From: a bacterium
GTDB taxonomy: Bacteria; UBP14; UBA6098; JAFGQG01
Length of the DNA stretch: 28,610 nt
Reading direction: 5' to 3'
Assembly: GCA_016930435.1 (NCBI GenBank)
Contig: JAFGGQ010000178.1
Location: forward strand, 1 to 28,610
Below are positions 1 through 25,448 of this stretch, one piece after another; positions within the stretch are counted from its first letter, which is position 1; every line of letters begins with the position of its first letter. The translations under genes and the position numbers were made by a program. The notes beneath the pieces are model-generated. The model had not been told where the DNA came from. It made no database searches and worked only from the letters and a program-made list of their open reading frames with translations.

Positions 1-662
1 ACCCTATCAACAGAAGTGTTTGTAAGGATTTCTATTTGGGAATTATTGTTAAGGGCTTCGATTTTTTTATCGATCATCTCCAGGTTGAATCCGGAATGCT
101 TCATAATATCCCGGTATTTGAGTACTTTGCCGCCCAGTTCGGATTCTTTCTCGATCAGATATATCTTGCGCTCGGGACCGGCCAGTGAGAGAGCAGATTC
201 AATGCCTGCAATACCTCCCCCAACCACGACAACGTCGGGATTCATATCCAGTTCTTTTTTAAGCAGGGGTTTATGCAATCTAACCCTCTCTATACCCGCC
301 TTGATATACTTGATGGCTTTTTGGGTAGCTATTTCTTTATCCTCAAATATCCAGGCGCAATGCTCCCTGATATTTACAACCTGACTTAGATAAGGATTGA
401 TTCCGCCACGGACGCTTACCTTCATGAAAGTGATCTCATGGTCTTTTGGAGAGCATGCTGCCACTACAAGATGGGTGAGGTTCTCATTTTTAATCTCATC
501 TACCAGGAAATTCTGGCCATCGCCGGAACATAATAATTTATGCCGTTTTACCGTGGCTACATTGGCCATGGGTTCGATCGCGGAAATAACCTGATCAATA
601 TGAATAGCATCTCCTATATTAGGTCCACACTCGCAAATATAGACACCAATTCTTTCGCTCAT
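1..662 (-). CDS. hdrA: HdrA-family FAD/iron-sulfur protein, N-terminal 220 residues, runs off left edge
   Basis: This open frame starts at an ATG behind a good ribosome site (TTGGAGG, 4 nt spacing) and is cut by the window edge. Residues 1-140 match the HdrA N-terminal domain: Cys10 and Cys12 in a YICECG motif, Cys45, the VVAACSP motif near 67-72, and IREHCAW near 98-104. The FAD-binding GGGIAG follows at 148-153. HdrA is the flavin subunit of heterodisulfide-reductase complexes and carries the bifurcating FAD. Unlike the HdrA half at 6990-8294, it lacks the DCSxC motif; residues 185-200 hold no cysteine there. It lies 35 nt behind the QmoA-like HdrA, so the two probably form a pair, as QmoA and QmoB do. 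The ferredoxin domains cannot be seen, so a fused MvhD tail as in QmoB cannot be judged. Confidence 0.9.
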   Translation of the reverse strand, partial: MSERIGVYICECGPNIGDAIHIDQVISAIEPMANVATVKRHKLLCSGDGQNFLVDEIKNENLTHLVVAACSPKDHEITFMKVSVRGGINPYLSQVVNIREHCAWIFEDKEIATQKAIKYIKAGIERVRLHKPLLKKELDMNPDVVVVGGGIAGIESALSLAGPERKIYLIEKESELGGKVLKYRDIMKHSGFNLEMIDKKIEALNNNSQIEILTNTSVDR

Positions 663-697
663 TTTGCCTCCAACAAAAATATTTTAAAAGACAACCA

Positions 698-1987
698 CTA
701 ACTAATAGAAAGAACCTTTCCCACTGCTGCTTGAGCTTGAGCAATAGAATCGGGAACGTCCTTGGGACTTTCGGCAGTTCCCACAACGAAAATACCGGGC
801 TTGTCAGTAGCAACAGGCTCTAAATCATCCTCCCTGGACAGAAAGAATCCATAGTTATCCTGGGAAATACCCAATATTTTAGCTAAACTCTCGGTATCCT
901 TTCCATTTTTGATTGATTGGGCAAGGATAACCATGTCTGCTTCTAAGGACTCTTCCTTATTGCTGTCGTTTTTATAATTTATTGTCACTTTATTTCCGTT
1001 TCCAGAGACAGAAACATCGCCGGCATAGATAAATTTAGCGCCCTCATCGACCGCTTTTTTATGGAATTTCTGGTAAGATTTTCCGGGAACACAGAGATCA
1101 TAATAGAGGTGCGAGACTTTCGCTTTAGGCAGGCAATGTTTAAGGTAATGGGCGAATTTAACGGCATACATGCAGCAAACAGCAGAGCAGTAGCCCAGCT
1201 CTTTTCGCCCAACACAATGGACAATGGCCACCGATTCGGGAGTGCTTCCGTCCCGGAGGGTAACCGCTCCCTCAGTAGGGCCATTTTTGGCAAATAAGCG
1301 TTCAAATTCCAGAGCGGAATAAACGTTCTGGACCTTCCCGAAAGCATATTGTGAAAGCTCCTTCAGGTCGCATACGGAGGCACCGGTAGCAACTATGATC
1401 CCCTCTACCTTGATCTCCATATACTCTTCCTTCTGATCATACTCAATAGCTTCAAACATACAGGAGTCCTTGCAGGCCTGACAGTCATCCTTTCCGCTCA
1501 ATCGGGTGCAATAATGGGGATCGATAACCGGAACGTTAGGAAGAGCTCCGGAGCATGGGATGTATATGGCTTTTTTCTGTATCAGGTTCTCTTCGAATTC
1601 GTTATCCAGGCTAACCGGACAGGGTTCATAGCAAGCACCGCAACCGATACAGTTGACCTCGGAAACATAACGGGGATTTCTTTTTAACAATACTGAAAAA
1701 TTACCCGCTTCCCCTTTTACTTCCTGGACCTCGGTCAGGGTAAGTAACTCGATATCCGGATTCTGCAGGACATCCTGCTGTTTGGGAGCGATCATACAGG
1801 TTGAGCATTCCATATTTGGGAAAACTTCTTCGTACTTGATTACTTGGCCCCCGAAAAGCGGTTCCTTCTCAACCAGGTAAACCTTTTTCCCGGCCTCTGC
1901 CAGAAGCAAACTGGCTTCGATTCCCGCCACTCCAGCGCCAATAACCAAAACATTATTGTTTGTTTGTTCAGCCATTTTAGTATTCAT
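698..1987 (-). CDS. hdrA: Short HdrA / QmoA-like FAD and iron-sulfur subunit
   Basis: This 429-residue protein is HdrA without the N-terminal domain and without the C-terminal double ferredoxin. It starts almost directly at the FAD motif (GAGVAG, 17-22) and ends right after the family's VVGTAESPKDVPDSIAQA stretch. The CSTC motif is at 61-64. The inserted ferredoxin has Cys113/116/119/123 and Cys160/169/172/176. The CVG...YCSxxCC motif conserved in HdrA is at Cys257/266/270/271. This layout is that of QmoA, an electron-transfer subunit of sulfate reducers, but no aprAB or sat is in view. It follows mvhD by 16 nt. Its start is not firm: ATG codons at residues 1 and 5 both lack a strong ribosome site. 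It probably passes electrons between MvhD, the HdrA at 1-662 and an unseen partner. Confidence 0.9.
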   Translation of the reverse strand: MNTKMAEQTNNNVLVIGAGVAGIEASLLLAEAGKKVYLVEKEPLFGGQVIKYEEVFPNMECSTCMIAPKQQDVLQNPDIELLTLTEVQEVKGEAGNFSVLLKRNPRYVSEVNCIGCGACYEPCPVSLDNEFEENLIQKKAIYIPCSGALPNVPVIDPHYCTRLSGKDDCQACKDSCMFEAIEYDQKEEYMEIKVEGIIVATGASVCDLKELSQYAFGKVQNVYSALEFERLFAKNGPTEGAVTLRDGSTPESVAIVHCVGRKELGYCSAVCCMYAVKFAHYLKHCLPKAKVSHLYYDLCVPGKSYQKFHKKAVDEGAKFIYAGDVSVSGNGNKVTINYKNDSNKEESLEADMVILAQSIKNGKDTESLAKILGISQDNYGFFLSREDDLEPVATDKPGIFVVGTAESPKDVPDSIAQAQAAVGKVLSIS

Positions 1988-2003
1988 TTTTTAAATGTTT
2001 CTA

Positions 2004-2429
2004 CTATACAGCAGGGTCTTTCCGCATCGGATTGGGTCCCATTTTCTGGATCTTATCGGTGAAGGTGTTAACCACATCACGATATCTCTGACCCTCCGAA
2101 GCTGACACCCAGGCCAATTGCAAGCGCTCAGGATCTATACTTAAGGACTCCAGAACCTTTTTCATAAGAGCGAAACGTCTTCGGGTATAATAATTGCCTT
2201 TTTCATAGTGGCAATCACCGGGATGGCAACCAGCAACCAATACACCGTCAGCTCCCCACAAGAAGGAGCTTAATACCAGATTAGGATCGATCCTGCTGGA
2301 GCACATCACCCTGATTACATTGATGGATGGTTTTATTTTAAGCTTCGTTGAACCCGCCAGGTCAGCAGCGGCATAGGTACACCAATTACATAAAAACCCA
2401 ACTATATTGGGGGTAAAATCTTCGCTCAT
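2004..2429 (-). CDS. mvhD: MvhD/FlpD-like [2Fe-2S] electron-transfer subunit
   Basis: The 141-residue length is normal for MvhD, the small subunit that docks on HdrA and feeds it electrons from a hydrogenase or dehydrogenase. The visible cysteine motifs are LCNWCTYAAADLAG near the start, RVMCSSR in the middle and GCHPGDCHY near residue 90. These are the family's hallmark and are expected to bind a [2Fe-2S] cluster. It lies between tusA and two HdrA genes in one direction. No hydrogenase gene is present here, so its electron source is unknown; TusA/DsrE-bound sulfur chemistry or the NADH module upstream are options. The ribosome site is weak, and an inverted repeat sits directly before the ATG. 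Confidence 0.92.
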   Translation of the reverse strand: MSEDFTPNIVGFLCNWCTYAAADLAGSTKLKIKPSINVIRVMCSSRIDPNLVLSSFLWGADGVLVAGCHPGDCHYEKGNYYTRRRFALMKKVLESLSIDPERLQLAWVSASEGQRYRDVVNTFTDKIQKMGPNPMRKDPAV

Positions 2430-2485
2430 AGTTGTTTACTTCTTTGCTAAATGTGAACGAATAACAGACACTTACATAAACAACT
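2430..2485 (-). repeat. 9-bp inverted repeat in the mvhD leader
   Basis: AGTTGTTTA at 2430-2438 and its exact reverse complement TAAACAACT at 2477-2485 flank a 38-nt loop. The inner arm abuts the mvhD ATG (2427-2429). In mRNA this could place the ribosome-binding region in a stem. The stem is AT-rich and the loop long, so chance is quite possible. Confidence 0.3.
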
Positions 2486-2509
2486 CAACAAATGTGATTA
2501 AACGACTAT

Positions 2510-2734
2510 TTAGAACTGGATCTGGGCTTTGAATTTGCCTCCGCCCTCATCTGTGCAGAATAATAAAGTTTTGCCAGTTCTGGCTGCCCAGGCTTTAATG
2601 TCATTAGGAAAAGAATGACAATCAGCGCTTATTTCCAAAATATCGCCTGCCTGCAATTTAGGAGCTAATGCGGCAACCTTTAAGATTGGTTGGGGGCATT
2701 TTAAACCGAGGGTATCCAGGGTATGAGTAGCCAT
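2510..2734 (-). CDS. tusA: TusA-family sulfur carrier protein
   Basis: This 74-residue protein has the TusA signature LGLKCPQP, with the sulfur-carrying Cys13 in a CPxP motif, and the usual family length. TusA proteins take a persulfide sulfur and pass it to tRNA thiolation, molybdenum cofactor or dissimilatory sulfur enzymes. The ribosome site is strong (AGGAGG, 7 nt before the ATG). It sits 84 nt after a DsrE-like gene and 80 nt before mvhD. The DsrE-TusA pairing with HdrA-type genes recalls sulfur-oxidation and sulfur-reduction loci, but no dsrAB and no lipoate-binding protein are seen, so a dissimilatory role is only a possibility. Confidence 0.95.
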   Translation of the reverse strand: MATHTLDTLGLKCPQPILKVAALAPKLQAGDILEISADCHSFPNDIKAWAARTGKTLLFCTDEGGGKFKAQIQF

Positions 2735-2818
2735 TATAAGTCCTCCTTTTTTGTGATTAAATGATTTTATTGTGTTTGCTTATTTTACTTTTTTAATTTT
2801 CATCAAGGTGATAAATGA

Positions 2819-3172
2819 TTAGAATGTAAAAGCTAAATCATAATCTTTTATTTCACTGATAAATGTAGTAGCGCCTACAACCTCGATTCCATCGCGAAGG
2901 TCCTCATGGGTAAAACCTTTGGCTTCGAAGCATAATTCACAAGCCATAATTCTGCCGCCGAGTAGCTGATAGCCTTCTACCAGCTCTGACATCACTGGCA
3001 AGCCCTTACCGGACATGTTTTCCAGAACCCCTTTTTTCAGGGCTAAACTGCCGCCTGGAGTATAAAACATGATTACTTCATCGCCTGAAGCCACCGCAGA
3101 TGAACCCAGAATAAAAGCAGGGAAAACACTACCGGGATCGTCATGGTTTACTACAATAGCTAATTTACTCAT
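2819..3172 (-). CDS. DsrE-family protein (predicted sulfurtransferase/peroxiredoxin-like)
   Basis: This soluble 117-residue protein has the DsrE/DsrF-like fold pattern: a beta strand with KLAIVVNHDDP at the start, then FYTPGGSLALKKG, and ACELCFEAKGF at 77-87 carrying Cys78 and Cys81. In DsrE-type proteins a cysteine in this region holds a persulfide. The ribosome site AAGGAGG with 5 nt spacing supports the ATG. It appears to be the first gene of a second unit (dsrE-like, tusA, mvhD, hdrA, hdrA), since a promoter-like sequence lies just upstream. It probably exchanges sulfur with the adjacent TusA. The substrate is unknown. Confidence 0.85.
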   Translation of the reverse strand: MSKLAIVVNHDDPGSVFPAFILGSSAVASGDEVIMFYTPGGSLALKKGVLENMSGKGLPVMSELVEGYQLLGGRIMACELCFEAKGFTHEDLRDGIEVVGATTFISEIKDYDLAFTF

Positions 3173-3296: not shown

Positions 3297-5063
3297 TTAA
3301 TCCAGGACCACCTTTACCATCTTCATGATCTGGTTGTCCTCCAGGTTTCTTTGTTGGACAGCGCCGCTGGGACAGGCAACTATACAGGAGCCGCATCCTT
3401 CGCAAAGGCCTTCATTTACGATAACGATATTATCTGATTCATCATATTCCCTTGCGCTGTATGGACATAGGGGAACGCAGATCTGGCATCCGCTGCAGAG
3501 GTCCGGGTCAACCCAGGCGATAATCGGCTCTTTATGTATCTCCGAACCGGAGAACATGGCGATCACCTTTGCCGCAGCGCCGCTGGCCTGGGCAACAGTA
3601 TCAGGAATATCCCTTGGTGCTTGAGCGGTACCGGCCAGAAAAAATCCACCGGTTAAAGTCTCTACCGGCCTCAGCTTGGGATGGGCCTCGGTCAAAAACC
3701 CGTGAGCATCCGTCTGGATTTTTAGTTTACGGATCAGGTCGCTTACTCCATGAGTAGGAACCACAGCCATGGAAAGCACAACCAAATCAGCTTCTACCTC
3801 TAATTGTTGACCGGTCAATGTATCCGCACCCATTACCGTTAAACCGCTATCAGGATTCTCGTAAATTCGGGAAACCTTACCCCGGATATACTTTACACCC
3901 TCTTCCTCCTGTGCACGGGTAACAAACTCCTCATAACCCTTGCCATCGGAACGGATGTCGATATAGAATATTATTGCTTCACCATTATGAACAGCATGTT
4001 TATAAAGCATGGCATGTTTGGCCGAATACATACAGCATATCTTGGAGCAATATGGGAAATGATTTTCAGGGTCCCGGGAACCAACACATGAAACGAAGAC
4101 GACCCTTTTGGGTTCCTTGCCGTCAGAGGGACGAAGGACTTTCCCGCTGGTCGGTCCCGATGCGGATAAAAGCCTTTCAAACTGCAGGCCGTCCAGAACA
4201 TTCTTATATTTTCCACCGCCATACTCGTTAAAATTTAAGATCGGATAAAGGTCATATCCGGTAGCAACCACTATGGCTCCAATCTCTTCCTCCACGAACT
4301 CCTCTTTCTGGTCGAAGGAAATAGCCTGAGGGCCGCAAACGGTCTGGCATACACCACAGCCATCATTGAGAAAATGCATGCAGTATTCCGGTGATAGAGC
4401 AGGTTTATTTGGAATAGCCTGAGCAAACGGAATGTTGATAACCGACCGTTTCATTAAACCGGCTTCATATTCGGATAACAGTGGTTCCGGCTTGCGGTCC
4501 GTTATCTTGCTTAGCTGAATAGCATTGGTAGGGCATATAAATTCACAGGCGCCGCAGGAAGAACATATTTCTGAATTTGCGTCAAATGGGGTGGTTAATT
4601 CCCTGCGGTAACCGCGCCCCTTGAATCCGATAGCTCCAATATGCATAACTTCCTCGCAGAAACGTGTACAAAGCGCGCATTGGATACACCGGTTTTCTTC
4701 ACGCTCTTTTTTAATCCTGAATCTGGTTTTCTCTATCCCGTATTCCCTGGCTAATTCCTGTATCTCCACTGCATCCGGGGCTTCAGCCAACATTAATTCC
4801 AGCAGAATCTTCCGGGCTTTCCGGACCATTTCGGAATTAGTGCGTACTTCCCCTTCCCAGGCGGGGAAGGTACAGGCAGGATGCAGGGTGGAACGGCCCT
4901 TCCAGATAGTCTCTACCATGCAAATCCGGCAGGCTCCATGTGCCGGTAATGAAGGATGATAGCATAATGTGGGGATATGTATCCCAAGCTCCCGGGCTAC
5001 TTCCAGGATAGATTTGGAAGGATCCGGGTCAACTTCTATGCCATCTATAATTAACTTGTCCAT
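3297..5063 (-). CDS. Fusion of NuoG/HydA-like N-terminus with the C-terminal half of HdrA
   Basis: This 588-residue hybrid starts with a plant-type [2Fe-2S] ferredoxin (Cys34/45/48/64) as in NuoG or HydA, then two [4Fe-4S] motifs (Cys126/129/132/136 and Cys167/170/173/177). From about residue 195 it is HdrA from the middle of its inserted ferredoxin onward: Cys228/236/239/243, the VVATGYDL stretch, CVGSRD...YCSKICC (Cys326/339/343/344), the FLAGTAQAPRDIPDTVAQA region and the C-terminal ferredoxin (Cys523/526/529/533 and 554/557/560/564). It lacks the first FAD motif and HdrA N-terminal domain; both are in the gene at 6990-8294. The His-Cys cluster motif of NuoG is missing: around residues 93-104 the sequence goes straight from LMLAEAP to IQELA. 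The ribosome site is GGAGG with 4 nt spacing. It should receive electrons from the NuoF-type subunit and complete the HdrA flavin unit. Confidence 0.92.
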   Translation of the reverse strand: MDKLIIDGIEVDPDPSKSILEVARELGIHIPTLCYHPSLPAHGACRICMVETIWKGRSTLHPACTFPAWEGEVRTNSEMVRKARKILLELMLAEAPDAVEIQELAREYGIEKTRFRIKKEREENRCIQCALCTRFCEEVMHIGAIGFKGRGYRRELTTPFDANSEICSSCGACEFICPTNAIQLSKITDRKPEPLLSEYEAGLMKRSVINIPFAQAIPNKPALSPEYCMHFLNDGCGVCQTVCGPQAISFDQKEEFVEEEIGAIVVATGYDLYPILNFNEYGGGKYKNVLDGLQFERLLSASGPTSGKVLRPSDGKEPKRVVFVSCVGSRDPENHFPYCSKICCMYSAKHAMLYKHAVHNGEAIIFYIDIRSDGKGYEEFVTRAQEEEGVKYIRGKVSRIYENPDSGLTVMGADTLTGQQLEVEADLVVLSMAVVPTHGVSDLIRKLKIQTDAHGFLTEAHPKLRPVETLTGGFFLAGTAQAPRDIPDTVAQASGAAAKVIAMFSGSEIHKEPIIAWVDPDLCSGCQICVPLCPYSAREYDESDNIVIVNEGLCEGCGSCIVACPSGAVQQRNLEDNQIMKMVKVVLD

Positions 5064-5102
5064 TTATCCTCCAATAAATTCCAATAAAATAAGTTTAGAG
5101 CA

Positions 5103-6956
5103 TTATTCGACTATTATGGCGTTAAATTTGCAAACATCAAAGCATATTCCGCACTTAATACATTTACCCTGGTCTATCTGATGGGGTTTCTTCACCTCGC
5201 CACTGATCGCATTATTGGGGCATTGCCGGAGGCAGAGTGTGCAACCGGTGCAGGCTTCCTGGTCTATTGTATAAGTGATGAGGGCTTTGCAGACTTTAGC
5301 GGGGCATTTTTTGTCCCTGATATGGGTTTCATATTCATCCCGGAAATAGAGCAGGGATGACTTGACCGGATTGGAAGCCGAAGAGCCCAGCGCGCAAAGA
5401 GAAGTCTCATCCAATATCCAGCTTAAATCCTCCAGCAATTCAATATCTCCTTCCCGTCCGCGGCCTTCGGTGATATCGTTAAGGATTTCGTACATCTGGA
5501 TCAAGCCTTCCCGGCAGGAGGTACATTTCCCGCAGGATTCATCCTTCAGAAAATTAACAAAGTATTTGGCTATGTCCACCATGCAGTTATTTTCGTCCAT
5601 AACGATCATGCCGCCGGACCCCATCATGGAACCTGCTTCGGTGAGACGCTCAAAATCAACGGGGAGGTCCAGCAGGCTTGCCGGCACTACACCACCGGAA
5701 GGACCCCCGGTTTGAACAGCCTTGAAAGGCTTATTGCCGATGATCCCACCCCCAATATCGTAGATTATCTTTCGAAGACTGACACCCATGGGTACTTCCA
5801 CTAAACCTGAATTATTGACCTTGCCTACCAGAGAAAATATCTTTGTACCCTTGCTCCTTTCGGTTCCGATACCGGTGAACCATTCCCAGCCATTATTAAT
5901 GATCAAGGGAACGTTCGCCCAGGTTTCAACATTATTCAGTGTGGTAGGGTTATCCCGAAGACCTTTCTCAACAGTATGAACATGCTTGGATCGAGGCTCT
6001 CCTACCTTTCCTTCCAGGGAGGCCATCAGCGCAGTCGATTCACCACAGACAAATGCTCCTCCACCCCTGTTTACTTTAACATCAAAATTAAAGCCGGAGC
6101 CCATTATGTTGTTTCCGAGCAGCCCATATTCACGGGCTTGTTCTAAAGCTATGGTAAAGTGTTTCAATGCCAATGGATATTCCTGGCGGACGTAAATATA
6201 ACCTTCATGAGAACCTATAGTGTAAGCGCCAATGATCAATCCTTCCAGAACAGAGTGGGGATTGCCTTCCAGGAGGGAGCGGTCCATATAGGCTCCAGGA
6301 TCACCCTCGTCGGCATTTATAATGACATATTTGGTTTCACCTTCGGCGTCCCGGCAGGATTGCCATTTACGGCCGGTGGGGAAGCCTCCGCCGCCGCGGC
6401 CCCTCAAACCCGATTTATTGATAATCTCAATTATCTCATCCGGATCCATGCCCGAAAGTACCTTCGCCAATGCCGTATAGCCACCAATAGCAATGTAATC
6501 CTCTATGGAAACAGGGGAAATTCTGCTGTTATTGCCAAAGACCAATCGCTGTTGGTGCTTGTAAAAAGGGATGTCCTTTTCAAAAATGATCTTTTCGCCC
6601 GTAGATAGATCCTCGTACAGAAGCCTTTCGATAATCTCATTTTTCATTATGGTGGTTTCAATGATCTCCGAAACGTCATTTTCCTGCACCCGCTGATACA
6701 TGATCCCTTCCGGCCGGACAACTACAATTACTCCACGTTCGCAAAAGCCATGGCAACCGGTAACCAGCAGGTCAACCTTCCGGTCCAATTTCCTTTGTTT
6801 TAATTCCTTTTTAAAGGTCTCTACCAGTTTATGAGCGCCCAGGGCAATACAGCCTGTTCCTGCGCAAAGGGCAATACAGGGCTTCTGGGGATCTTTATCC
6901 TTGTTAAGTTTATTCCTTAAATCTTCCAGCGCTTTTATGCTTTTTAATTGGGGCAT
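5103..6956 (-). CDS. nuoF: HydB/NuoF-type NADH-binding FMN iron-sulfur subunit
   Basis: At 617 residues this matches the long NuoF form of bifurcating hydrogenases (HydB, HndC). The N-terminal thioredoxin-like [2Fe-2S] domain has Cys31/36/68/72. The NADH/FMN core shows [10 protein letters not shown] (186-195), [13 protein letters not shown] (214-226) and [13 protein letters not shown] (304-316), and the [4Fe-4S] site has [12 protein letters not shown] (Cys475/478/481) plus Cys521. The C-terminus carries CPAKVCKAL (551-559) and a two-cluster ferredoxin (Cys569/572/575/579 and 599/602/605/609). It oxidises NADH, or reduces NAD+, in the cytoplasm. It lies between the two HdrA-half hybrids, whose NuoE and NuoG-like parts are its normal partners, so the three should form one module. 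GAGG lies 8 nt before the ATG. Confidence 0.95.
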
Positions 6957-6989
6957 TATTTTTACCTCTGCATTAATTGAAGATATTGG

Positions 6990-8294
6990 CTATATTTTAC
7001 TGTATTTTTTCAACAGCTCGCCCACCTTTTTGGGGGTCATCATAAAGTAGTCATCATCTATCACAGCTACCGGAGCCAGAGCGCAGCAACCCAGACAGGC
7101 TACAGTTTCCAGTGTAAATTTATTATCCGGAGTAGTCTCTCCGGGCTTGATTTCTAATTGTCTTTGAAATTCATCGAGAATTTTCAATGCACCCCGGGTG
7201 TGACAGGCGGTACCGGTGCATACCCGGATCAAATGATCGCCCCTGGGGGTTAAGCTGAAGGCTGTATAAAAGGTAGCGACATGATAAATCTGGGGCAAAG
7301 ATACCGATAACCTTTCCGATACATATTTCAAGGCCTGTTCGGGAAGATAGTTATATTTTAGATTGATATCCTGAAGGATTAGTACCAGCATTTCCTTGTC
7401 CTGACTCCCCTCCTGAGCGGGAAGGTAATTCTTTAAGATCTGGTCCACTTCCTTCTTCAACCTGGGTTCGATCTGCTTGCTATATTCCGGCTTGGGCTGT
7501 ATATGCGGTTTGTAGTGAACAGGGCAATGGGTCATACAATCACCGCAACCGGTACATTTTTCATAATCCACATACCGCGGTTTCTTCTTGATCTTGACCT
7601 TAAAATTGCCTACATAGCCGGAAACATCTTCTACTTCAGAATAGGAATAAAGCTTGATATTGTTATGATGACCGGCCTCCACCATTTTAGGGGTCAGGAT
7701 GCATTGCGAACAATCCAGGGTGGGAAAGGTCTCGGAAAGCTGGATCATGTGTCCCCCTATGGAGGATTCCTTTTCAACCAATATCACCTCGTAACCGGAG
7801 TTCGCTATATCCAGGCTGGCTTGAATTCCCGCGATCCCACCGCCGATCACCAGCGCCTTTCTGGTTACGGGGATGCTTATAGGGGTAAGTTTCTCGTTCT
7901 GCTTGACCTTTTCGATGATGGTCTGTACGATCTTGACCGCTTTACTGGTGGCAGAGGAAATATCATGATGAACCCATGAACAATGCTCCCGGATGTTAGC
8001 GCTTTCAAAACGGAAAGGGTTCACGCCCTCCGCTTCACAAGCGCGCCTAAAGGTCAATTCATGCAGGGTGGGGGAGCAAGCTGCGACTACTATCCCATTC
8101 AGATTTTTCTCCCGGATCTTCTCCCGGATTAATTGCTGACCAGGCTCTGAACACATATAAACATAGTTCTCGCAATGCTCAACTCCAGGATAGTTTTTAA
8201 TCTCCTCGACCACCTTTTTAACGTCCACAGTTGCGGCTATATTGCTCCCGCAATGACAGACAAAAACGCCAATTCTCTGATCGTTATTTTTCAT
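6990..8294 (-). CDS. Fusion of the N-terminal half of HdrA with a NuoE [2Fe-2S] domain
   Basis: Residues 1-140 are the HdrA N-terminal domain (Cys13, Cys15, YMCSEPGQ, VVAACSPTLHE, IREHC). The FAD motif GGGIAG is at 151-156, the DCSQCILTPKM motif at 194-204, and one [4Fe-4S] motif at Cys247/250/253/257. There HdrA stops. From about residue 275 to 434 the protein is NuoE: helices, the PQIYHVATFY stretch, then [2Fe-2S] ligands Cys359/364 and Cys400/404 in CTGTAC and CLGCC. The rest of HdrA lies in the gene at 3297-5063. Both are uninterrupted, well-formed proteins, so this is not a frameshift. Its ATG overlaps the hdrB stop by 4 nt (ATGA), implying translational coupling. The product should hold the HdrA FAD and sit between NuoF and HdrBC. 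Confidence 0.93.
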   Translation of the reverse strand: MKNNDQRIGVFVCHCGSNIAATVDVKKVVEEIKNYPGVEHCENYVYMCSEPGQQLIREKIREKNLNGIVVAACSPTLHELTFRRACEAEGVNPFRFESANIREHCSWVHHDISSATSKAVKIVQTIIEKVKQNEKLTPISIPVTRKALVIGGGIAGIQASLDIANSGYEVILVEKESSIGGHMIQLSETFPTLDCSQCILTPKMVEAGHHNNIKLYSYSEVEDVSGYVGNFKVKIKKKPRYVDYEKCTGCGDCMTHCPVHYKPHIQPKPEYSKQIEPRLKKEVDQILKNYLPAQEGSQDKEMLVLILQDINLKYNYLPEQALKYVSERLSVSLPQIYHVATFYTAFSLTPRGDHLIRVCTGTACHTRGALKILDEFQRQLEIKPGETTPDNKFTLETVACLGCCALAPVAVIDDDYFMMTPKKVGELLKKYSKI

Positions 8295-9154
8295 TTGAAT
8301 AATTCCCTGGGGTTAATATAATTGAGATCAAACCTTAAGGATTTAAGGGGTAGCCCGAGTGCCTTACCCAATAACTGTGTATAATAAAGAACAGGGATAT
8401 CAACGTGGTCCGGATATTTTTTACGGACCTCTTTCTGGCGGTTATCGAGATTGAATTCGCACAATGGGCAACTGGTGATAATCACATCAGCGCCATAGGC
8501 TTGCGCGGATTGGGTGATCATCCGGGTACGCTCGATCACGATATCCTTGTTGCTCACGGTCTCGTAGGAGCAGCAGCATTCGTTAGCATAAGGGAATGGC
8601 ACCGCTTCCGCGCCAGTAGTACGGATCAAGTCTTCCATTATGGTTGGGCTTTCGGGATCATCAATACACACCTCTTTCGGCCGGAGCAATAAACAACCGT
8701 AATAGGCGGCCACTTTTAAACCATCCAAAGGTTTTTTGATCTGGGATTTTATTTTATCGTACCCGACCATGTCCCGAAGCACGGTTAATCCATGCAGAAC
8801 CTTGACCTTCCCATCATATTTAACCTTTTCCTTGTACATAAATTCGTTCAATTTATCCCGTTCTTCCTCGTTTTGTTGAATCCGCAGATTGGACTGGGCT
8901 AGTGTATTATAGCACATGCTGCACAGGGTAACCACCTGATCGGCACCCTGTTCTTCAACCCGGATAAGGTTTCTGATCGGCGCAAGATGATGCATCAGGT
9001 CGTCCGAGGTAAGGGAATAAACCGTTCCGCAACAATTCCAGCGGGGCAACTCCTTAAGTTCGATACCCAGCTTTTTATATACTGCAAAGGCAGAATCGTC
9101 GAAGTTCTTGGCTGTGGTCTTTAATGTACAACCCGGATAATATGGTATTTCCAT
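8291..9154 (-). CDS. hdrB: HdrB-type subunit with two CCG domains
   Basis: This 287-residue protein has two cysteine-rich CCG motifs. The first uses Cys9, Cys41-Cys42 and Cys78/81; the second uses Cys154, Cys193-Cys194 (in ECCCSYE) and Cys229/232. In HdrB these bind two noncubane [4Fe-4S] clusters, where heterodisulfide is split in methanogens. Related subunits in bacteria act on other disulfides or serve as electron relays, as in the CCG part of methanogen thiol:fumarate reductase TfrB and SdhE-type anchors. Length is normal for HdrB. It lies between hdrC and the HdrA-NuoE hybrid, in an operon with FrdAB. There is no membrane segment. Its true substrate is not evident; it may be a relay to FrdAB or a thiol-disulfide site. 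Confidence 0.93.
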   Translation of the reverse strand: MEIPYYPGCTLKTTAKNFDDSAFAVYKKLGIELKELPRWNCCGTVYSLTSDDLMHHLAPIRNLIRVEEQGADQVVTLCSMCYNTLAQSNLRIQQNEEERDKLNEFMYKEKVKYDGKVKVLHGLTVLRDMVGYDKIKSQIKKPLDGLKVAAYYGCLLLRPKEVCIDDPESPTIMEDLIRTTGAEAVPFPYANECCCSYETVSNKDIVIERTRMITQSAQAYGADVIITSCPLCEFNLDNRQKEVRKKYPDHVDIPVLYYTQLLGKALGLPLKSLRFDLNYINPRELFK

Positions 9155-9170
9155 GAGTCCACCTATTTTC

Positions 9171-9575
9171 TTAACTTGACATTTTTCTTAAACAACTCAC
9201 CAGCGCTATGGTGGGAAGTTCCATTCTTTCTTTGGGCGTCAGCTCATCCACGCTAACTATATCAACGTTCTTGCGGATCCGTATCTGGCGGAGGGATTCC
9301 ATTATCTTTGGAAGATTGACACCTTTGGGACAGCGTTGAGAACAGGTAAAGCAAGATGCGCAAGCCCAGATAGTCTTTGAGTTTAAAACCTCCTCGTCCA
9401 ATCCCAGCATAATATACCTGTTGACCTGATTGGGGATAAGATCCATGCTGGCAATACTTGGGCAACCTCCGGAACACCTTCCGCATTGGTAGCATTTGAG
9501 AAGATTTTCCCCGCTAAGCTCTTCAACCTTCTCGCGAAGACTTTCCTCCCTATCAATTTTTAATTTAACTTTCAT
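9171..9575 (-). CDS. hdrC: HdrC-type double [4Fe-4S] subunit
   Basis: This short 134-residue HdrC has two CxxCxxCxxxCP motifs, Cys28/31/34/38 and Cys72/75/78/82, binding two [4Fe-4S] clusters. HdrC carries electrons between HdrA and HdrB. It lies directly after frdA (16 nt) and before hdrB (16 nt). In methanogen TfrB a 2Fe-2S/4Fe-4S part and a CCG part are in one chain; here the equivalent pieces are FrdB, HdrC and HdrB. The ribosome site is AAAGGA, 8 nt before the ATG. The last 40 residues have no recognisable motif. Confidence 0.93.
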   Translation of the reverse strand: MKVKLKIDREESLREKVEELSGENLLKCYQCGRCSGGCPSIASMDLIPNQVNRYIMLGLDEEVLNSKTIWACASCFTCSQRCPKGVNLPKIMESLRQIRIRKNVDIVSVDELTPKERMELPTIALVSCLRKMSS

Positions 9576-9591: not shown

Positions 9592-11244
9592 TCAAAAGAC
9601 GTCGATCATTCTGGCCAACGCTGCCTTTCCCCGGTATTCAGGGAGGATAATCGGAGCCCTTCTTTCCGGTTTGATATTAGCGGCTTTGAGCATTTGAACA
9701 TATACATCAAGATGATCCAGGGTGAGTTTTCCCCAACTCTTTTGGGTTTGCACGAACTTAGCTGCATCAATTCCGGCCCGTCTTCCAAATACCATAGTGC
9801 CCAAGGTAGAATTGCCCATCAAGCGGTTCTTCCCATGTATCCCGCCGGCAACCTCTCCGGCAGCATACAGGCCTTCCAGGCTGGTATGAGACCATGGATC
9901 TATTTCTATCCCGCCATTCTGATAATGCAGTGTTGGGAATATCAGTACTGGGTTTTTACGTATATCGATGCCAAAGCGTTCATACATCCTTTTGATGCCG
10001 GGGAATGATTTATCTATAAACCCCTCGCCATTTTTAAGGTCAATAAGGGGGGTATCAAGCCAGACGCCCCGCAGGCCGGTAGGTGTGATTACACCATTCT
10101 CCCTAACGTAGCATTCCTTGATAATGGCCGAGGCCTCGACATCACGTGGTTCCAGGGGGAATACAAATGCCTCACCATCCTTGTTGACAGGTTGAGCGCC
10201 GGTAGCGCGGAGTTTTTCGGTGAGCAGAAAACCGATGATTTGTACCGGATAGGCTGCTCCGGTAGGATGATATTGCACGGTGTCTGCATCGATCAGCTTT
10301 GCCCCGGCACGGTAGGCCAACACTACTCCATCATAAGTAGCGCCATAATGATTAGTGGTCGGGAACCCCCGAATGTGCAGCCGGCCAAACCCCCCTGTTG
10401 CCATGATAACCGCTTTGGATTTGACGATCTTGTACTCTCCGGTTTCCAGGTTCCAGAGTACCGCACCGGTTACTTTATTGCCGTCGGTGAGCAGTTCGAT
10501 TACCGGGAAATGCTCGATGGATGGGATCAACCTGTTCGTGAATTCGTCTTTAAGAACACGCAGTTCCTCCAGTCCGGTATAGTCTTTACAGGAATGCATT
10601 CTTCTGACCGAGGTGCCTCCGCCCCATTTCTCGGTGAATTCGCCGTTCTCTTCCCTGTCCAGCATAGCACCCAACTCACAAAGCCAGTCCATTATAATCG
10701 GAGCATCGGTCACCAGCGCCCGGACTACGTCTGGTTTGTTTGTAAAGTGTCCGCCGCCGATAGTATCTATAAAGTGTTTTGCCGGGGAATCGGGCTCACG
10801 ATCCGCCGCCTGAGTGCCACCCTCAGCCATAATGGAATTAGCATCGCCATGCCTGAGTTTGTTGGTAAGCAGGATATTTTCCGCTTTCACCCCCATTTCA
10901 TTGGCCCAGATAGCTGCCGAAGTACCCGCTAAACCACCACCAATGATAAGGATCTCCGGAGAATAATCCGCTTTGGAAAGATCAATATCGCCCTTTTCAA
11001 TCAGGGGATAAGCCTCCAGAAGATTTGCTATCTCGTCCGGGACGATATCGCCCTTATTCAATCCTACCATAAGGTTCCGCTTGCCCCCCTTGGCATAATC
11101 GGGGTGGAATTGCAGAACATCCTCTCTACCCTCAGGAGTCAGCGCTTTAGGAACAAAGTCCTTGCGCTTGGCTCTGGTTTGATGGACTTTCTGAATGAGC
11201 TTATGCATGTATTCAGGGTAACCGTCAATATATTTCTCAGCCAT
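9592..11244 (-). CDS. frdA: Fumarate reductase / succinate dehydrogenase flavoprotein (FrdA/TfrA-like)
   Basis: The 550-residue protein has the FrdA core from about residue 95: GGGLAG (102-107), AEGG (140-143), HPTG with His326, TEKLR with Arg346, EPRDVEASA with Arg367, LHYQNGG with His440 and NRLMGNSTLG. These cover the known substrate and catalytic residues, so it should interconvert fumarate and succinate. The His that binds FAD covalently in SdhA/FrdA is replaced by Asn136 (ANSIMAEGG instead of SHTVAAEGG), so FAD is probably non-covalent. An extra N-terminal stretch of about 93 residues precedes the FAD domain, and the C-terminus is short. No frdC/frdD anchor follows; HdrC and HdrB do. 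Ribosome site AGGAG, 6 nt spacing. L-aspartate oxidase is a relative, but the adjacent fumarase and FrdB argue for fumarate. Confidence 0.92.
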   Translation of the reverse strand: MAEKYIDGYPEYMHKLIQKVHQTRAKRKDFVPKALTPEGREDVLQFHPDYAKGGKRNLMVGLNKGDIVPDEIANLLEAYPLIEKGDIDLSKADYSPEILIIGGGLAGTSAAIWANEMGVKAENILLTNKLRHGDANSIMAEGGTQAADREPDSPAKHFIDTIGGGHFTNKPDVVRALVTDAPIIMDWLCELGAMLDREENGEFTEKWGGGTSVRRMHSCKDYTGLEELRVLKDEFTNRLIPSIEHFPVIELLTDGNKVTGAVLWNLETGEYKIVKSKAVIMATGGFGRLHIRGFPTTNHYGATYDGVVLAYRAGAKLIDADTVQYHPTGAAYPVQIIGFLLTEKLRATGAQPVNKDGEAFVFPLEPRDVEASAIIKECYVRENGVITPTGLRGVWLDTPLIDLKNGEGFIDKSFPGIKRMYERFGIDIRKNPVLIFPTLHYQNGGIEIDPWSHTSLEGLYAAGEVAGGIHGKNRLMGNSTLGTMVFGRRAGIDAAKFVQTQKSWGKLTLDHLDVYVQMLKAANIKPERRAPIILPEYRGKAALARMIDVF

Positions 11245-11282: not shown

Positions 11283-12038
11283 CTAATCCTTTTCCCGTTC
11301 CCGGGCGGCGTAAAACTTGACCAGTTCCTCCTTAGTAGCTTTCTCCAGTTTATCCAGTTCAGGGTCGAACTTCTTTTCTTCAAGCTCCTTGAGCCTTATT
11401 TTAAGATGGTCAGGTTTATCCATACCGTATCTGCCATACATTCTGCGGCCTAATTGCCCGATGTCGTATTGTACTATCTCCGCCGGGCAGCGCATGGCGC
11501 ATAAACCGCATCTGATACAGTCGAAAGAGGTCTCGGCAACTTTTTCATAATTTCCCCGCAGAGCAGCCTGCACATAATCCATAACCTCGATATCCTGAGG
11601 ACAGGCCTTAGTGCAGGTATTACAGGAAACGCACTTGGCCACTTCCGGATAGTATTTCAGGATAGTGGAAACATTATAGCGTTCCTTCTTTATGTCATAG
11701 ATTGCTTTTTGGGCGGGTGAAAAGGGTATTTGAACCAGGTACATCCCGTCTTCCACCCTTGTTTGGCAGGCTAAACCGGTCTTAAGCTTATATTCTCCTT
11801 CTTTGCGGTAAACGGTGCCGCATGCGCCGCAAAACCCCTGCCTGCAGCCTACACCGCGGACAAAACGGTATCCTGCGAATTCCATAGCGGTCAGGATGGT
11901 CAGGTCGGAGGGCACCCGATACGCCTTGCCCATGATACGAATAGTCACCCAGTGCTTTATATCTTTTTCATCAACACCGGCAGTTACCGGTTTATTGGCT
12001 TCTGCGATCCTCTCCATTACGCTTTTTTCGTTACTCAT
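11283..12038 (-). CDS. frdB: Fumarate reductase iron-sulfur subunit with two [4Fe-4S] motifs (FrdB/TfrB-like)
   Basis: This 251-residue protein has a [2Fe-2S] ferredoxin domain (Cys65/70/73/91) followed by two CxxCxxCxxxCP motifs (Cys136/139/142/146 and Cys174/177/180/184). Standard SdhB/FrdB has a [3Fe-4S] motif as its last site, next to the quinone; here both later sites look like full [4Fe-4S] sites, as in soluble, quinone-independent enzymes such as the TfrB front half. The last 50 residues are charged and probably helical. It lies 38 nt ahead of frdA and 14 nt behind the fumarase beta gene. It should pass electrons between the FrdA flavin and HdrC. The GAGG ribosome site is well placed. 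Confidence 0.92.
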   Translation of the reverse strand: MSNEKSVMERIAEANKPVTAGVDEKDIKHWVTIRIMGKAYRVPSDLTILTAMEFAGYRFVRGVGCRQGFCGACGTVYRKEGEYKLKTGLACQTRVEDGMYLVQIPFSPAQKAIYDIKKERYNVSTILKYYPEVAKCVSCNTCTKACPQDIEVMDYVQAALRGNYEKVAETSFDCIRCGLCAMRCPAEIVQYDIGQLGRRMYGRYGMDKPDHLKIRLKELEEKKFDPELDKLEKATKEELVKFYAAREREKD

Positions 12039-12052
12039 ATTGCACCTCTATG

Positions 12053-12640
12053 TTAAGCAGTTATGGATGATAAAATGCGTTGATAATTTTCGGCTGTCTC
12101 CTTCTCCACCCTTTCGTGGAGGCTTTCGCCTTGGCTATCCATAGTAACAATGACGGGAAAGTTTTCAGCCCGGCATACCCAGAAGGCTTCCGGAGTTCCG
12201 AACTCCTCGAGCTTGAAAACATTGATGATCTCCTTGACAGATTTGGCGATCAAGGTTCCCGCGCCCCCGATGGCGTGAAAATAGCAAGCCCCAAAATGCT
12301 GACAGGCATTTAAAGTTTTTGCCCCCATGCCCCCCTTGCCAATCATTCCGCGAAGATGATAACTCTCGATCACTGCAGCCTGGTATGGTTCTTCCCGGAT
12401 GCTGGTGGTGGGTCCGGCAGAGACGAAACTCCAAACCCCATTCTCGTTCTTTACTACCGGTCCGCAATGGTAAATGATGCCGCCATTGAGATACTCATCC
12501 AGGAACTGAGGCCGTTCTTCAACCATTAGTTTATGGCCGGCATCCCGGGCGGTAACTATGATACCGGAAAGCCCTACCACATCGCCGCATCTTAGCTTTC
12601 GGATATCCTCTTCAGAAATGGGGGTCTTTAAATTAATCAT
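12053..12640 (-). CDS. Class I fumarate hydratase, beta (C-terminal) subunit
   Basis: This 195-residue protein matches the small subunit of two-part iron-sulfur fumarases and tartrate dehydratases: AGPTTSIRE near 76-84, IGKGGMGAKT near 99-108, and the GAGTLIAKSVKEI helix. With the alpha subunit it hydrates fumarate to malate. Its ATG overlaps the alpha-gene end by 8 nt, and its ribosome site (AGGGG) lies inside that gene, so expression is coupled. Tartrate dehydratase is a possible alternative by sequence, but frdAB directly downstream makes fumarate the likely substrate. Confidence 0.93.
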   Translation of the reverse strand: MINLKTPISEEDIRKLRCGDVVGLSGIIVTARDAGHKLMVEERPQFLDEYLNGGIIYHCGPVVKNENGVWSFVSAGPTTSIREEPYQAAVIESYHLRGMIGKGGMGAKTLNACQHFGACYFHAIGGAGTLIAKSVKEIINVFKLEEFGTPEAFWVCRAENFPVIVTMDSQGESLHERVEKETAENYQRILSSITA

Positions 12641-13505
12641 TGTCGAAATCCCCTTTGCTTAAGATCAAAGTTTTTCTCCGGCAAGCCCAGCACATATATG
12701 AGATGGTCACGAAGAATGTGGCTGGATGCCGATGGTATTTCCCGCAAAAAACCTCTAATACAGTAGTTTTACCGCCGAATCCCATAGGACCAATACCCAG
12801 GGCGTTTAACTGGTTAAAGAGTTCCACTTCCGCTTCGGCCAAAACCGGATCTTCGGAACGCTCACCGAATTTGCGAAGCAGAACCTCCTTGGATAGTTCG
12901 TAGGATGATACCCGGTCACCACCGATGCCTACACCTATGATCCCCGGCGCGCAACCCTTGCCCTGAGCCTTGAAAACAGCATCGATCACGCACTTTTTTA
13001 TCCCCTTGAGATCCCTACCGGCTTGAAGACCGGCATCAGGCAGCTTGTATTGAGTACCCACGTTCTCGGAACCCCCACCCTTAAGCATCAGACGAAAACG
13101 GAAATCATCACGTTCCCACTGATGAAAATGAAAATAGGGGGCGTTCAACCCGATATTATTACCGGAATTCTTGCCGGTTATCGGGTCCACAGCATTGGGT
13201 CTGAGCAGATATTCCCGGGTCGCACGATCCGCAGCGATCTGAATAGAACGCTTCAGGGGATCTGTATCAGTGCCAACCGGAACATCAATATAGAACAGCA
13301 AAGAACCGGTGTCCTGACATATAGGGGTTGTAAATTCCCGGGCCATCTTTGTGTTTTCAAGAATTGCATCAAAAGCGCTGAAGGACATACTCCCCTCCAG
13401 CTCCCGGTCGCGCGCATCCACCAAAGACTGCTCCACATCCGGAGGAAGATCGGTCGAAGCGCTTTTTATTAATCCCATAATATGCTCTGAGAGTTTTTGA
13501 TTCAT
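12633..13505 (-). CDS. Class I fumarate hydratase, alpha (N-terminal) subunit
   Basis: This 290-residue catalytic subunit binds an oxygen-sensitive [4Fe-4S] cluster: Cys63 in PICQDTG, Cys185 in GCAPGIIGVGIGGDR and Cys254 in EVFCGKYHRHPA. KGGGSENVG (142-150) is also typical. I use the ATG at 13503-13505 because AAAGGGA lies 8 nt before it and family proteins begin about here; a longer open frame with 28 more residues lacks a ribosome site and would overlap the promoter. It is the first gene of the long minus-strand cluster and links malate to the FrdAB step. Confidence 0.94.
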   Translation of the reverse strand: MNQKLSEHIMGLIKSASTDLPPDVEQSLVDARDRELEGSMSFSAFDAILENTKMAREFTTPICQDTGSLLFYIDVPVGTDTDPLKRSIQIAADRATREYLLRPNAVDPITGKNSGNNIGLNAPYFHFHQWERDDFRFRLMLKGGGSENVGTQYKLPDAGLQAGRDLKGIKKCVIDAVFKAQGKGCAPGIIGVGIGGDRVSSYELSKEVLLRKFGERSEDPVLAEAEVELFNQLNALGIGPMGFGGKTTVLEVFCGKYHRHPATFFVTISYMCWACRRKTLILSKGDFDND

Positions 13506-13561
13506 CGAGGTCCCTTTCTTGTATAAAGTACCATAAGCCCTAAATAAAAAAATGGTATTGA

Positions 13562-13589
13562 ATGATAAATAGATATTAAATTTTGGCAA
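13562..13589 (-). promoter_or_regulatory. Candidate sigma-70-type promoter for the fumarase-frd-hdr operon
   Basis: On the minus strand TTGCCA (13584-13589) and TATCAT (13562-13567) are separated by 16 nt, each with 5 of 6 consensus bases. Long A runs directly upstream of the -35 box (minus strand, about 13592-13608) resemble an UP element. Transcription would start about 50 nt before the fumarase ATG. This is the best promoter match in the divergent gap 13506-13754. Confidence 0.5.
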
Positions 13590-22316: not shown

Positions 22317-22421
22317 CATAAAAATGGCAATTTTAGCTTGCATTTCCTTATTCTTAAACTATTTTATTTAAATGAAATTAGTAAACTTATGGCGAAACCT
22401 CAAGGCCCGGGAAGGATACTT

Positions 22422-25400: not shown

Positions 25401-25448
25401 CGGACCCCTCATCAAACCCTGTCACGGCAGCTGTTATTCATCAAATAA
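22422..25448 (+). CDS. Secreted S8 subtilisin-like protease with T9SS C-terminal domain
   Basis: The 1008-residue protein begins with a signal peptide (MRYLKYLMSILFIVNTLLL), then a prodomain to about residue 165. The S8 catalytic domain has all residues: Asp194 in VLDTGV, His252 in HGTHTSG, oxyanion Asn354 in AAGNG and Ser456 in GTSMAAPH. A CARDB-like beta domain (FDLGETAELLVTIKN) follows, then a beta-rich stretch, and from about 926 a type A sorting domain (PYPNPFN, LAIYDIRGR, LASGVYLCRL, final LLFIK). It should be exported and attached or released at the surface, digesting proteins. I use the ATG at 22422 because AAGG lies 6 nt upstream and the signal peptide starts there; the open frame extends 28 codons further. 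Confidence 0.93.
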   Translation: MRYLKYLMSILFIVNTLLLCVSFGEPLTSEMQERLRGLRDDQKLSVIAWLEESNDYENMLYHISDLPMPERRLEGREMLKEHWELHNQWVLEYLYREKKQGNAGSIKRLWIVNSVAFRATPAVIRELAQSPKVKYIFEDRECFMISDVSAPSFDEMVADATTSPTDIAWGVSHIGASTVWSSYTGENVVVGVLDTGVKYTHDDLQNNMWINTGETPGNGEDDDFNGYIDDIYGYNFPDSTGDPNDDNWGTWHGTHTSGTVAGDGSSGTNTGVAPGARIMALKVLRYNGAGGPVSVTEGLQYGLDNGAQVFNLSIGFEYGTYSYLEDYLIVKNFFRSAFQVILTVGVNAAIAAGNGSSYGHYDIPYDISVPADAPAPWEPDGGHSAAIAVANINSSNNISSSSSRGPTEWDNDTYDDYPYGGGEPGLVKPDLSAPGTSITSCYGLSETGYVQYSGTSMAAPHLAGAIALMLDKNPTMTPEEIDSILETTALDLGTTGKDNDYGSGLIRCVLAILNTPELTQPYIHYLNHEVDPEGNQIFDLGETAELLVTIKNLGINANNVEVTLSESSPYVSLSDDRATYGSISSGENKTNNSNPFLIYASPSTPVGHIVRLIMNITADGPYSNNDTLEVSVGTYNRDYMDHETVNLDFTVTNFGSYGYFDPTVATPSGQGFKFQGYNYLFGGGFLLGLSYNNVVSYEYGQTSEWLPISDLQMSDPPEADQQITTSFIDPYSRIEVCQYSFAWNSQDYIIFKYDLVNRGTETISNFYTAVYCDWDIHYASETWYDQGNFSGTNDWVYMFDSDSPPLHNGYVGLVGLTPSANGSMVENAVYVYPSGGGMGWDDTVKFNFMNGSFFDASGTPADDWSTILFSGPFTLAPGERTRVGYAIVAGTSLSNFESNAGSARAQWTSVSVIETQSLNIPQKITLDPPYPNPFNHKTRISFSIPGDMPVELAIYDIRGRIIRTIVKSPLGGGDHHYYLEASNLASGVYLCRLRTPHQTLSRQLLFIK

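Follow-up and report, generated by a model that had tools for sequence, protein, structure and literature searches.

Flx-Hdr, which leads electrons from NADH to HdrABC, has an intact HdrA. For type I HdrA, the ferredoxin domain inserted into the protein has been described as the low-potential exit to ferredoxin (PMC9012536), and type III HdrA has been described from methane-metabolizing archaea (PMC12054007, PMC9012536). In Pseudoclostridium thermosuccinogenes, an operon for fumarase, Flx-Hdr, and fumarate reductase (Frd) has been proposed to make succinate coupled to ferredoxin reduction (PMC7282089). For bacteria that rely on neither a hydrogenase-linked nor an Flx input, the route by which NADH reaches HdrA is a question in anaerobic bioenergetics. 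Our subject is a stretch of 28,610 nucleotides from an uncultured bacterium of the GTDB lineage UBP14 (contig JAFGGQ010000178.1 of GenBank assembly GCA_016930435.1; hereafter, the window), in which HdrA is divided over two genes, AE and GA, that carry NuoE- and NuoG-like parts, respectively, and that flank a gene, F, for a NuoF-like subunit. This split of HdrA around an NADH module seems not to have been described before as a means to wire NADH directly into electron-bifurcating machinery.

All three genes lie on the minus strand. AE (6990..8294; 434 amino acids [aa]) is a fusion of the N-terminal half of HdrA (aa 1-260) to NuoE (aa 277-434), as evidenced by phmmer and Pfam. Residues 5-260 match residues 3-259 of the HdrA chain 5odc_A in a phmmer search of the PDB (E 2.4e-96; 148/256 identities, 58%), residues 277-433 match NuoE/HydC in the same search, and residues 295-431 are a 2Fe-2S_thioredx domain in Pfam. 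The HdrA N-terminal domain and the first part of the thioredoxin-reductase-like flavin adenine dinucleotide (FAD) domain (aa 1-238; 7581..8294) are followed by the first motif of the inserted ferredoxin domain (motif 1, CTGCGDCMTHC; aa 240-260, 7515..7577) and then by a thioredoxin-fold [2Fe-2S] domain (aa 277-434; 6993..7466) that corresponds to NuoE/HydC and to BfuC, the NuoE-like [2Fe-2S] subunit of the Bfu core. A structural model of AE matches 5odc_A over 233 residues (Z 23.8; root mean square deviation, 4.9) and NuoE-type chains at Z up to 18.8. The initial annotation had read this gene as HdrA up to Cys257 and NuoE thereafter, and these searches bear it out, with Cys257 being the last cysteine of motif 1.

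GA (3297..5063; 588 aa) joins a NuoG/BfuA-like N-terminal part (aa 1-186; 4506..5063) to the C-terminal half of HdrA (aa 196-588). The N-terminal part, of which residues 3-186 match HydA/NuoG-type N-termini, is a ferredoxin domain with one [2Fe-2S] and two [4Fe-4S] motifs, and the His/Cys4 cluster motif of HydA is absent from it. The HdrA part comprises motif 2 of the inserted ferredoxin (CMHFLNDGCGVCQTVC; aa 228-243, 4335..4382), the remainder of the FAD domain, and a C-terminal 2[4Fe-4S] domain (aa 510-588), the C-half as a whole being mapped to 3300..4478 with Z 27 to HdrA. By phmmer, GA from residue 167 or 199 to 587 matches HdrA from 246 or 261 to 647, and identity to 5odc_A is 176/375 (47%). 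The GA model matches HdrA chains at Z 27-28, and N-termini of BfuA and HydA were matched separately. The earlier description of this gene as a NuoG/HydA-like N-terminus that turns into HdrA at the second half of the inserted ferredoxin thus agrees with both the phmmer search and the alignment to 5odc_A. No GltD-like Pfam match was found in AE or GA, which sets them apart from type III HdrA.

Placed on the Methanothermococcus HdrA (5odc_A), the two halves are complementary: AE covers residues 3-259 and GA covers residues 261-647. The seam (259|261) separates the two motifs of the inserted 2[4Fe-4S] ferredoxin domain, whose eight cysteines are all kept, four per chain (C247, C250, C253, and C257 of AE; C228, C236, C239, and C243 of GA). 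All eight C-terminal HdrA cysteines are kept as well, as are the equivalents of C194 and C197. The full domain set of a bifurcating HdrA (N-domain cluster, FAD domain, and inserted and C-terminal 2[4Fe-4S] domains) is present in AE and GA jointly and in neither alone. With this coverage and all iron-sulfur cysteines retained, the proposals that the two genes together make one full HdrA and that the break lies inside a single domain both stand. In a 2[4Fe-4S] ferredoxin, cluster I is bound by the first three cysteines of motif 1 and the fourth of motif 2, and cluster II by the reverse. This normal pattern therefore predicts two inter-chain clusters, each with three of its ligands on one chain and the fourth on the other. 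Moreover, E356 and K409 of HdrA, which lie near FAD N5 and are cited as residues proposed to mark bifurcating HdrA (PMC12054007), correspond to E296 and K349 of GA; both columns are at least 90% conserved in intact and split sequences alike. Single-chain AlphaFold2 predictions gave a predicted local distance difference test score (pLDDT) of 85 and a predicted template modeling score (pTM) of 0.47 for AE, and a pLDDT of 72.5 and the same pTM for GA. Confidence was lowest at AE 178-194, AE 241-270, and GA 194-260, i.e., the parts that meet in HdrA; this fits joint folding of the two chains but is not proof of it.

Many other anaerobes share this split. By searching relatives and reading each locus, we gathered 26 loci from 21 genomes at which both halves were readable, always on the same strand and near each other; four further loci end at a contig edge before the N-terminal half. 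A lone half was found at none of the 26 loci with readable flanks. At all 26, HdrA is on two chains rather than a single polypeptide, both ferredoxin motifs are intact, and motif 1 of AE keeps its four cysteines. Because the split recurs to this extent, chance and assembly error are excluded; a decayed or misassembled hdrA with no functional split has a negligible probability, given that intact frames, ligands, and gene order are kept throughout. The NuoG-HdrA C-half fusion is common to all 26 loci. The HdrA N-half is fused to NuoE, as in the window, at 13 loci, and at the other 13 it is a gene of its own (275-411 aa), with a separate NuoE gene coming next in most cases. The initial annotation had named constant co-occurrence of the two fusions as support and the regular occurrence of one half alone as a refutation. 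The refuting pattern was not seen; the halves and the NuoG fusion do occur together (26/26), but the HdrA-NuoE fusion is not constant (13/26). Since NuoE is unfused at half of the loci, the essential feature is the split together with the NuoG fusion. We regard gene anatomy, recurrence, and linkage as practically certain and consider it very probable that AE and GA form one HdrA, in which the two chains would fold together and share bridging clusters.

Variants of the design were also encountered. A second full AE-F-GA set is present in the same genome on another contig, C131 (L001:12594-17553). In a third form (L002/L004, L056, and L058), the first HdrA of a tandem HdrA is split: the HdrA N-domain is absent, and a FAD lobe 1-NuoE protein is paired with a NuoG-FAD lobe 2-further full HdrA protein of ~1090 aa (L002:7400-8377 and L004:649-3933, also L056 and L058). 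Genome G394 encodes a NuoG-HdrA C-half-MvhD triple fusion of 738 aa (L113:2675-4891). At L008:3655-6060, a different HdrA is encoded as two consecutive open reading frames with a break within the first FAD lobe, which could be a frameshift.

The gene between the halves, F (5103..6956, minus strand), encodes an NADH- and flavin mononucleotide (FMN)-binding subunit of the NuoF/HydB (BfuB) type. Pfam identifies Complex1_51K, NADH_4Fe-4S, a thioredoxin-like N-domain, and a C-terminal Fer4 region with two [4Fe-4S] motifs, and F aligns over its full length with BfuB subunits of solved structure (E 1e-240 and 1e-231). It has the complete set of BfuB ligands for clusters B1 to B5, comprising the B2 ligands C458, H545, C551, and C556 along with C475, C478, C481, C521, and eight C-terminal cysteines. 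According to the passages of PMC9304861 covered, the B2 histidine occurs in virtually all bifurcating BfuB proteins and is absent from nonbifurcating homologs, and the threonine seen at the fifth B2 site of F is described for most BfuB. The equivalent of His545 is invariant in the 20 F proteins that were aligned from split loci. In one relative, the residue aligned with C556 is alanine, and several end in a GltD-like region that replaces the full 2[4Fe-4S] set. By its ligand set, F is a Bfu/HydB-type subunit and not a complex I NuoF: NuoF had been correctly placed between the two genes, but what stands there is a protein with the full ligand set of a bifurcating BfuB instead of an ordinary NuoF. 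NuoH (PF00146), from the membrane arm of complex I, has no match in this 90%-complete genome. A long NuoF of ~1010-1080 aa occurs at L002:8830-11910, L043:11868-14909, L051, L055, and L056; its C-terminus matches GltD/NfnB-type domains that replace the full C-terminal ferredoxin domain (Fer4_20 and Pyr_redox_2 were confirmed in L002), and it is possibly a two-headed NADH/NADPH subunit.

The three genes had also been likened to HydABC in which the hydrogen-cluster (H-cluster) domain was exchanged for half an HdrA. The resemblance of the parts to HydABC holds, but a hydrogenase was probably not the donor. GA lacks the His/Cys4 motif, and the closest unfused NuoEFG sets (L076 and L082-L088) have a short BfuA without an H-cluster domain, which disfavors the exchange and makes a short-BfuA set the more likely source. 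The H-cluster domain (PF02906) has no match in GA or anywhere in the genome. The genome does carry large subunits of [NiFe] hydrogenases, one of them on contig C32 alongside an intact HdrA with MvhD.

Insight into the origin of the split comes from a locus in genome G152 (L061), where the order hdrC-hdrB-hdrA-dsrE-mvhD-qmoA-like-hdrA-like equals that of the window, hdrA is intact (653 aa; 58-79% identity to the halves in the window, depending on the domain), and nuoEFG is absent. Because this operon is otherwise nearly identical, the NADH module can be said to sit inside hdrA. Compared with L061, the HdrA sequence breaks off in AE after "...CPV" and continues in GA with "SEYEAGL," with ~2 HdrA residues unaccounted for, and the order hdrA_N-nuoE-nuoF-nuoG-hdrA_C is the outcome that insertion of nuoEFG into hdrA would give. 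In the HdrA-part tree, fused-split and intact HdrAs are interleaved with 10 changes: S_L046 is a neighbor of the intact L077, S_L049 of L009, S_L042 is near L065-L067, and the window is near L061 and L008. In the NuoE+F+G tree, eight fused loci form one clade (Shimodaira-Hasegawa-like approximate likelihood ratio support, 99). Grouping seven of these loci together in the HdrA tree, as one origin of the split would require, was rejected by the approximately unbiased test, with a p value (5e-17) that is only indicative because the genes are mosaic. Both halves share their nearest intact HdrA at 13 of 17 loci, and their divergences covary across loci (r = 0.85; 0/2000 permutations as high). These sequence comparisons trace the HdrA halves to several lineages of intact HdrA; given the conflict between the trees and the shared nearest relatives, either NuoEFG entered hdrA repeatedly at one place or, in the simpler scenario, a single cassette spread by recombination into several lineages of hdrA.

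Paralogs in genome G001 delimit this cassette. Its loci L006 and L041 share 95.0% of residues over AE 231-430 and 90.2% over GA 1-255, whereas identity in the flanking HdrA parts is 63.9% and 47.6%. The homogenized block begins just before motif 1 in AE and stops just after motif 2 in GA. Since they were homogenized together, motif 1, NuoE, NuoG, and motif 2 behave as one unit spread over two chains, which is the best, albeit indirect, evidence that they work as one. Operons L041:7579-10703 (G001) and L045:942-4026 (G011) have a split HdrA and lack a nuoF of their own; their NuoE- and NuoG-facing parts resemble the paralogous operon of the same genome, strongly so in L041, and NuoF may be shared from elsewhere in both cases.

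In the window, the split genes belong to an operon of the order fumarase-FrdB-FrdA-HdrC-HdrB-AE-F-GA on one strand, in which no intergenic gap exceeds a few dozen bases. HdrB, with two CCG domains (8291..9154), overlaps AE by 4 bp and is preceded by HdrC (9171..9575), a FrdA/TfrA-like fumarate reductase flavoprotein that is closest to the thiol:fumarate reductase TfrA (9592..11244), a FrdB/TfrB-like iron-sulfur subunit (11283..12038), and the beta subunit of fumarase (12053..12640), all on the minus strand. The adjoining 12633-13589 was assigned to fumarase alpha by position and sequence. Convincing FrdAB homologs occur at 9 of the 14 closely related intact-HdrA loci that were fetched (L061-L074). 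Downstream, 3-3172 holds genes for an HdrA-like protein (cut off by the contig end), a QmoA-like protein, MvhD/FlpD (2004..2429, minus strand; possibly a further electron port of HdrA), TusA, and DsrE; comparable genes come after the intact hdrA of L061 and after the split genes of L006, and a link to sulfur carriers is possible. Scans for promoters and terminators gave signals at the level of shuffled sequence, and an Rfam scan gave no match. Unrelated to the split HdrA, 22338-25448 and 25489-28254 encode large subtilase-like secreted proteins with sorting-domain-like C-termini.

Taken together, we propose that a Bfu-type NADH module built into HdrA at the inserted ferredoxin domain gives a soluble electron-bifurcating complex, an Hdr that is NAD(H) driven and ferredoxin coupled; we lean toward this view of the whole, and hold with greater assurance, as probable, that NAD(H) is wired to the HdrA FAD through the inserted ferredoxin domain. 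AE would supply the HdrA N-domain, the first FAD lobe, and ferredoxin motif 1, and F would be held between NuoE on AE and NuoG on GA, such that electrons from NADH could reach the HdrA FAD by way of FMN, the NuoG clusters, and the bridging ferredoxin domain. The FAD would then split them between HdrC/HdrB on the high-potential side, from which they would here probably pass to FrdAB and fumarate, and ferredoxin. The overall reaction, 2 NADH + fumarate + 2 Fdox -> 2 NAD+ + succinate + 2 Fdred, would be reversible and has an energy of ~-49 kJ/mol by standard potentials of -320, +33, and -420 mV. Such NADH-driven, ferredoxin-coupled fumarate reduction is the most likely reaction in view of the Frd operon, the FrdAB genes at intact-HdrA relatives, and the succinate operon of P. 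thermosuccinogenes. Even so, NADH as the donor with ferredoxin and fumarate as the acceptors is an assignment in which doubt slightly outweighs confidence, and the direction of flow may differ.

Several observations weigh against this proposal. The low pTM of the GA model and its poor confidence at 194-260 are among them, as is the theoretical possibility that motif 2 of GA pairs with the NuoG motif of the same chain (C167-177). FrdAB adjoins only 3 of the 13 fused loci (the window, L006, and L044), and the genome's second copy stands beside EtfAB and acyl-CoA dehydrogenases, which rules out fumarate as the acceptor in general. The neighbors of that copy (L001:10709-18958, C131) include EtfBA, a CCG protein, MeaB, a B12-binding protein, and, by sequence inspection, four acyl-CoA dehydrogenase-like genes and an RnfC-like gene; they suggest an acyl-CoA-linked version, and the same device thus seems to serve other acceptors. 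Finally, NADH entry through the inserted ferredoxin reverses a port that is the low-potential exit in type I HdrA. It is this last point that gives weight to an arrangement of the same architecture with the NuoEFG module on the low-potential branch, which would conserve the type I flow from MvhD through the C-terminal ferredoxin and FAD to HdrBC and, through the inserted ferredoxin, to ferredoxin (PMC9012536). It gains from type III HdrA, for which the GltD module in this domain has been proposed to let NADH take the place of ferredoxin (PMC12054007), and from the position of MvhD next to GA at most of the distant loci. Nonetheless, MvhD of the window and its close relatives is not adjacent and belongs with the QmoA-like/HdrA-like genes, NADH serves poorly as a low-potential acceptor when flow is linked to fumarate, and a donor to MvhD would be needed; we regard this alternative as unlikely, if worth serious attention.

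Alternatively, the FMN of the Bfu core might be the only bifurcation site and the split HdrA a nonbifurcating conduit to HdrBC, since F has every ligand of a bifurcating BfuB, including the diagnostic histidine, and Bfu enzymes typically route their third substrate via BfuA. That E296 and K349 are conserved so highly among intact and split HdrAs and that the C-terminal 2[4Fe-4S] domain is retained make such a conduit quite improbable. Nor do we expect that AE and GA belong to different HdrAs, each pairing with another HdrA-like protein (e.g., the QmoA-like/HdrA-like pair at 3-1987), or that GA motif 2 closes on GA's own NuoG motif. Genes for a QmoA-like and an HdrA-like protein are indeed present in the window, and phmmer can also align GA 167-177 to HdrA motif 1, but distant loci have both halves without the Qmo-like pair, the four cysteines of motif 1 are kept at all 26 loci, motifs 1 and 2 are exchanged together, and the halves covary; the chance of such separate pairing is small. 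Returning to the built-in NADH module, a more far-reaching and distinctly tentative version is a two-flavin, double-bifurcating enzyme, in which a Bfu FMN core acting on NADH and ferredoxin would be in series with the HdrA FAD via a ferredoxin domain with two inter-chain [4Fe-4S] clusters, and the ferredoxin domain plus NuoEFG would be a cassette exchangeable across HdrA lineages with different acceptors (fumarate, or acyl-CoA via electron-transferring flavoprotein).

The arrangement fixes the entry or exit port as the inserted ferredoxin domain, predicts iron-sulfur clusters between chains, and brings two otherwise separate families of bifurcating enzymes into a single complex. The intact-HdrA relative L061 and the shuffled paralogs are natural controls for which flavin bifurcates. 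The arrangement also suggests that genome annotation has taken split HdrA for unrelated NuoE/NuoG and HdrA fragments.

The initial annotation knew of no characterized enzyme with this split. The open-access literature that was searched, including papers on Bfu enzymes, HdrA diversity, anaerobic methanotrophic archaea, and archaeal fusions, yielded no description of a split HdrA-NuoEFG, though an earlier notice is possible; however, interruption of the same domain by GltD/NfnB is known from type III HdrA, and the split design is widespread. Like the split HdrA, type III HdrA (HdrA9-11; PMC12054007, PMC9012536) has an NAD(P)H-oxidizing flavoprotein module between ferredoxin motifs 1 and 2. It is one chain, however, with a GltD/NfnB-like insert joined ~28 residues downstream of the split point and the start of motif 2 replaced, whereas the split HdrA has a break in the chain and carries NuoE-NuoF-NuoG as its module, over three polypeptides. 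Bacterial candidates for type III HdrA were seen at L055:5332-8733, L075:1971-5318, L079:1697-5029, L080:3078-6410, and L119:3292-7023. With the Bfu family (HydABC-like), as described in the covered passages of PMC9304861, the split HdrA shares the BfuBC core ligands and a BfuA with an added catalytic part ("Type 1"). Bam-Bfu likewise joins BfuABC with HdrA, but there HdrA is described as a separate module, and those passages contain no split HdrA. Mvh-HdrABC (5odc) has the same HdrA fold, ligands, bifurcation residues, and HdrBC partner; its HdrA, in contrast, is one chain, and its donor enters via MvhD. Finally, the Flx-Hdr succinate operon of P. thermosuccinogenes (PMC7282089) resembles the window in combining an NADH-to-HdrABC route with FrdAB and fumarase in one operon, the difference being on the NADH side, which is Flx in P. 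thermosuccinogenes and a Bfu module fused into HdrA in the window.

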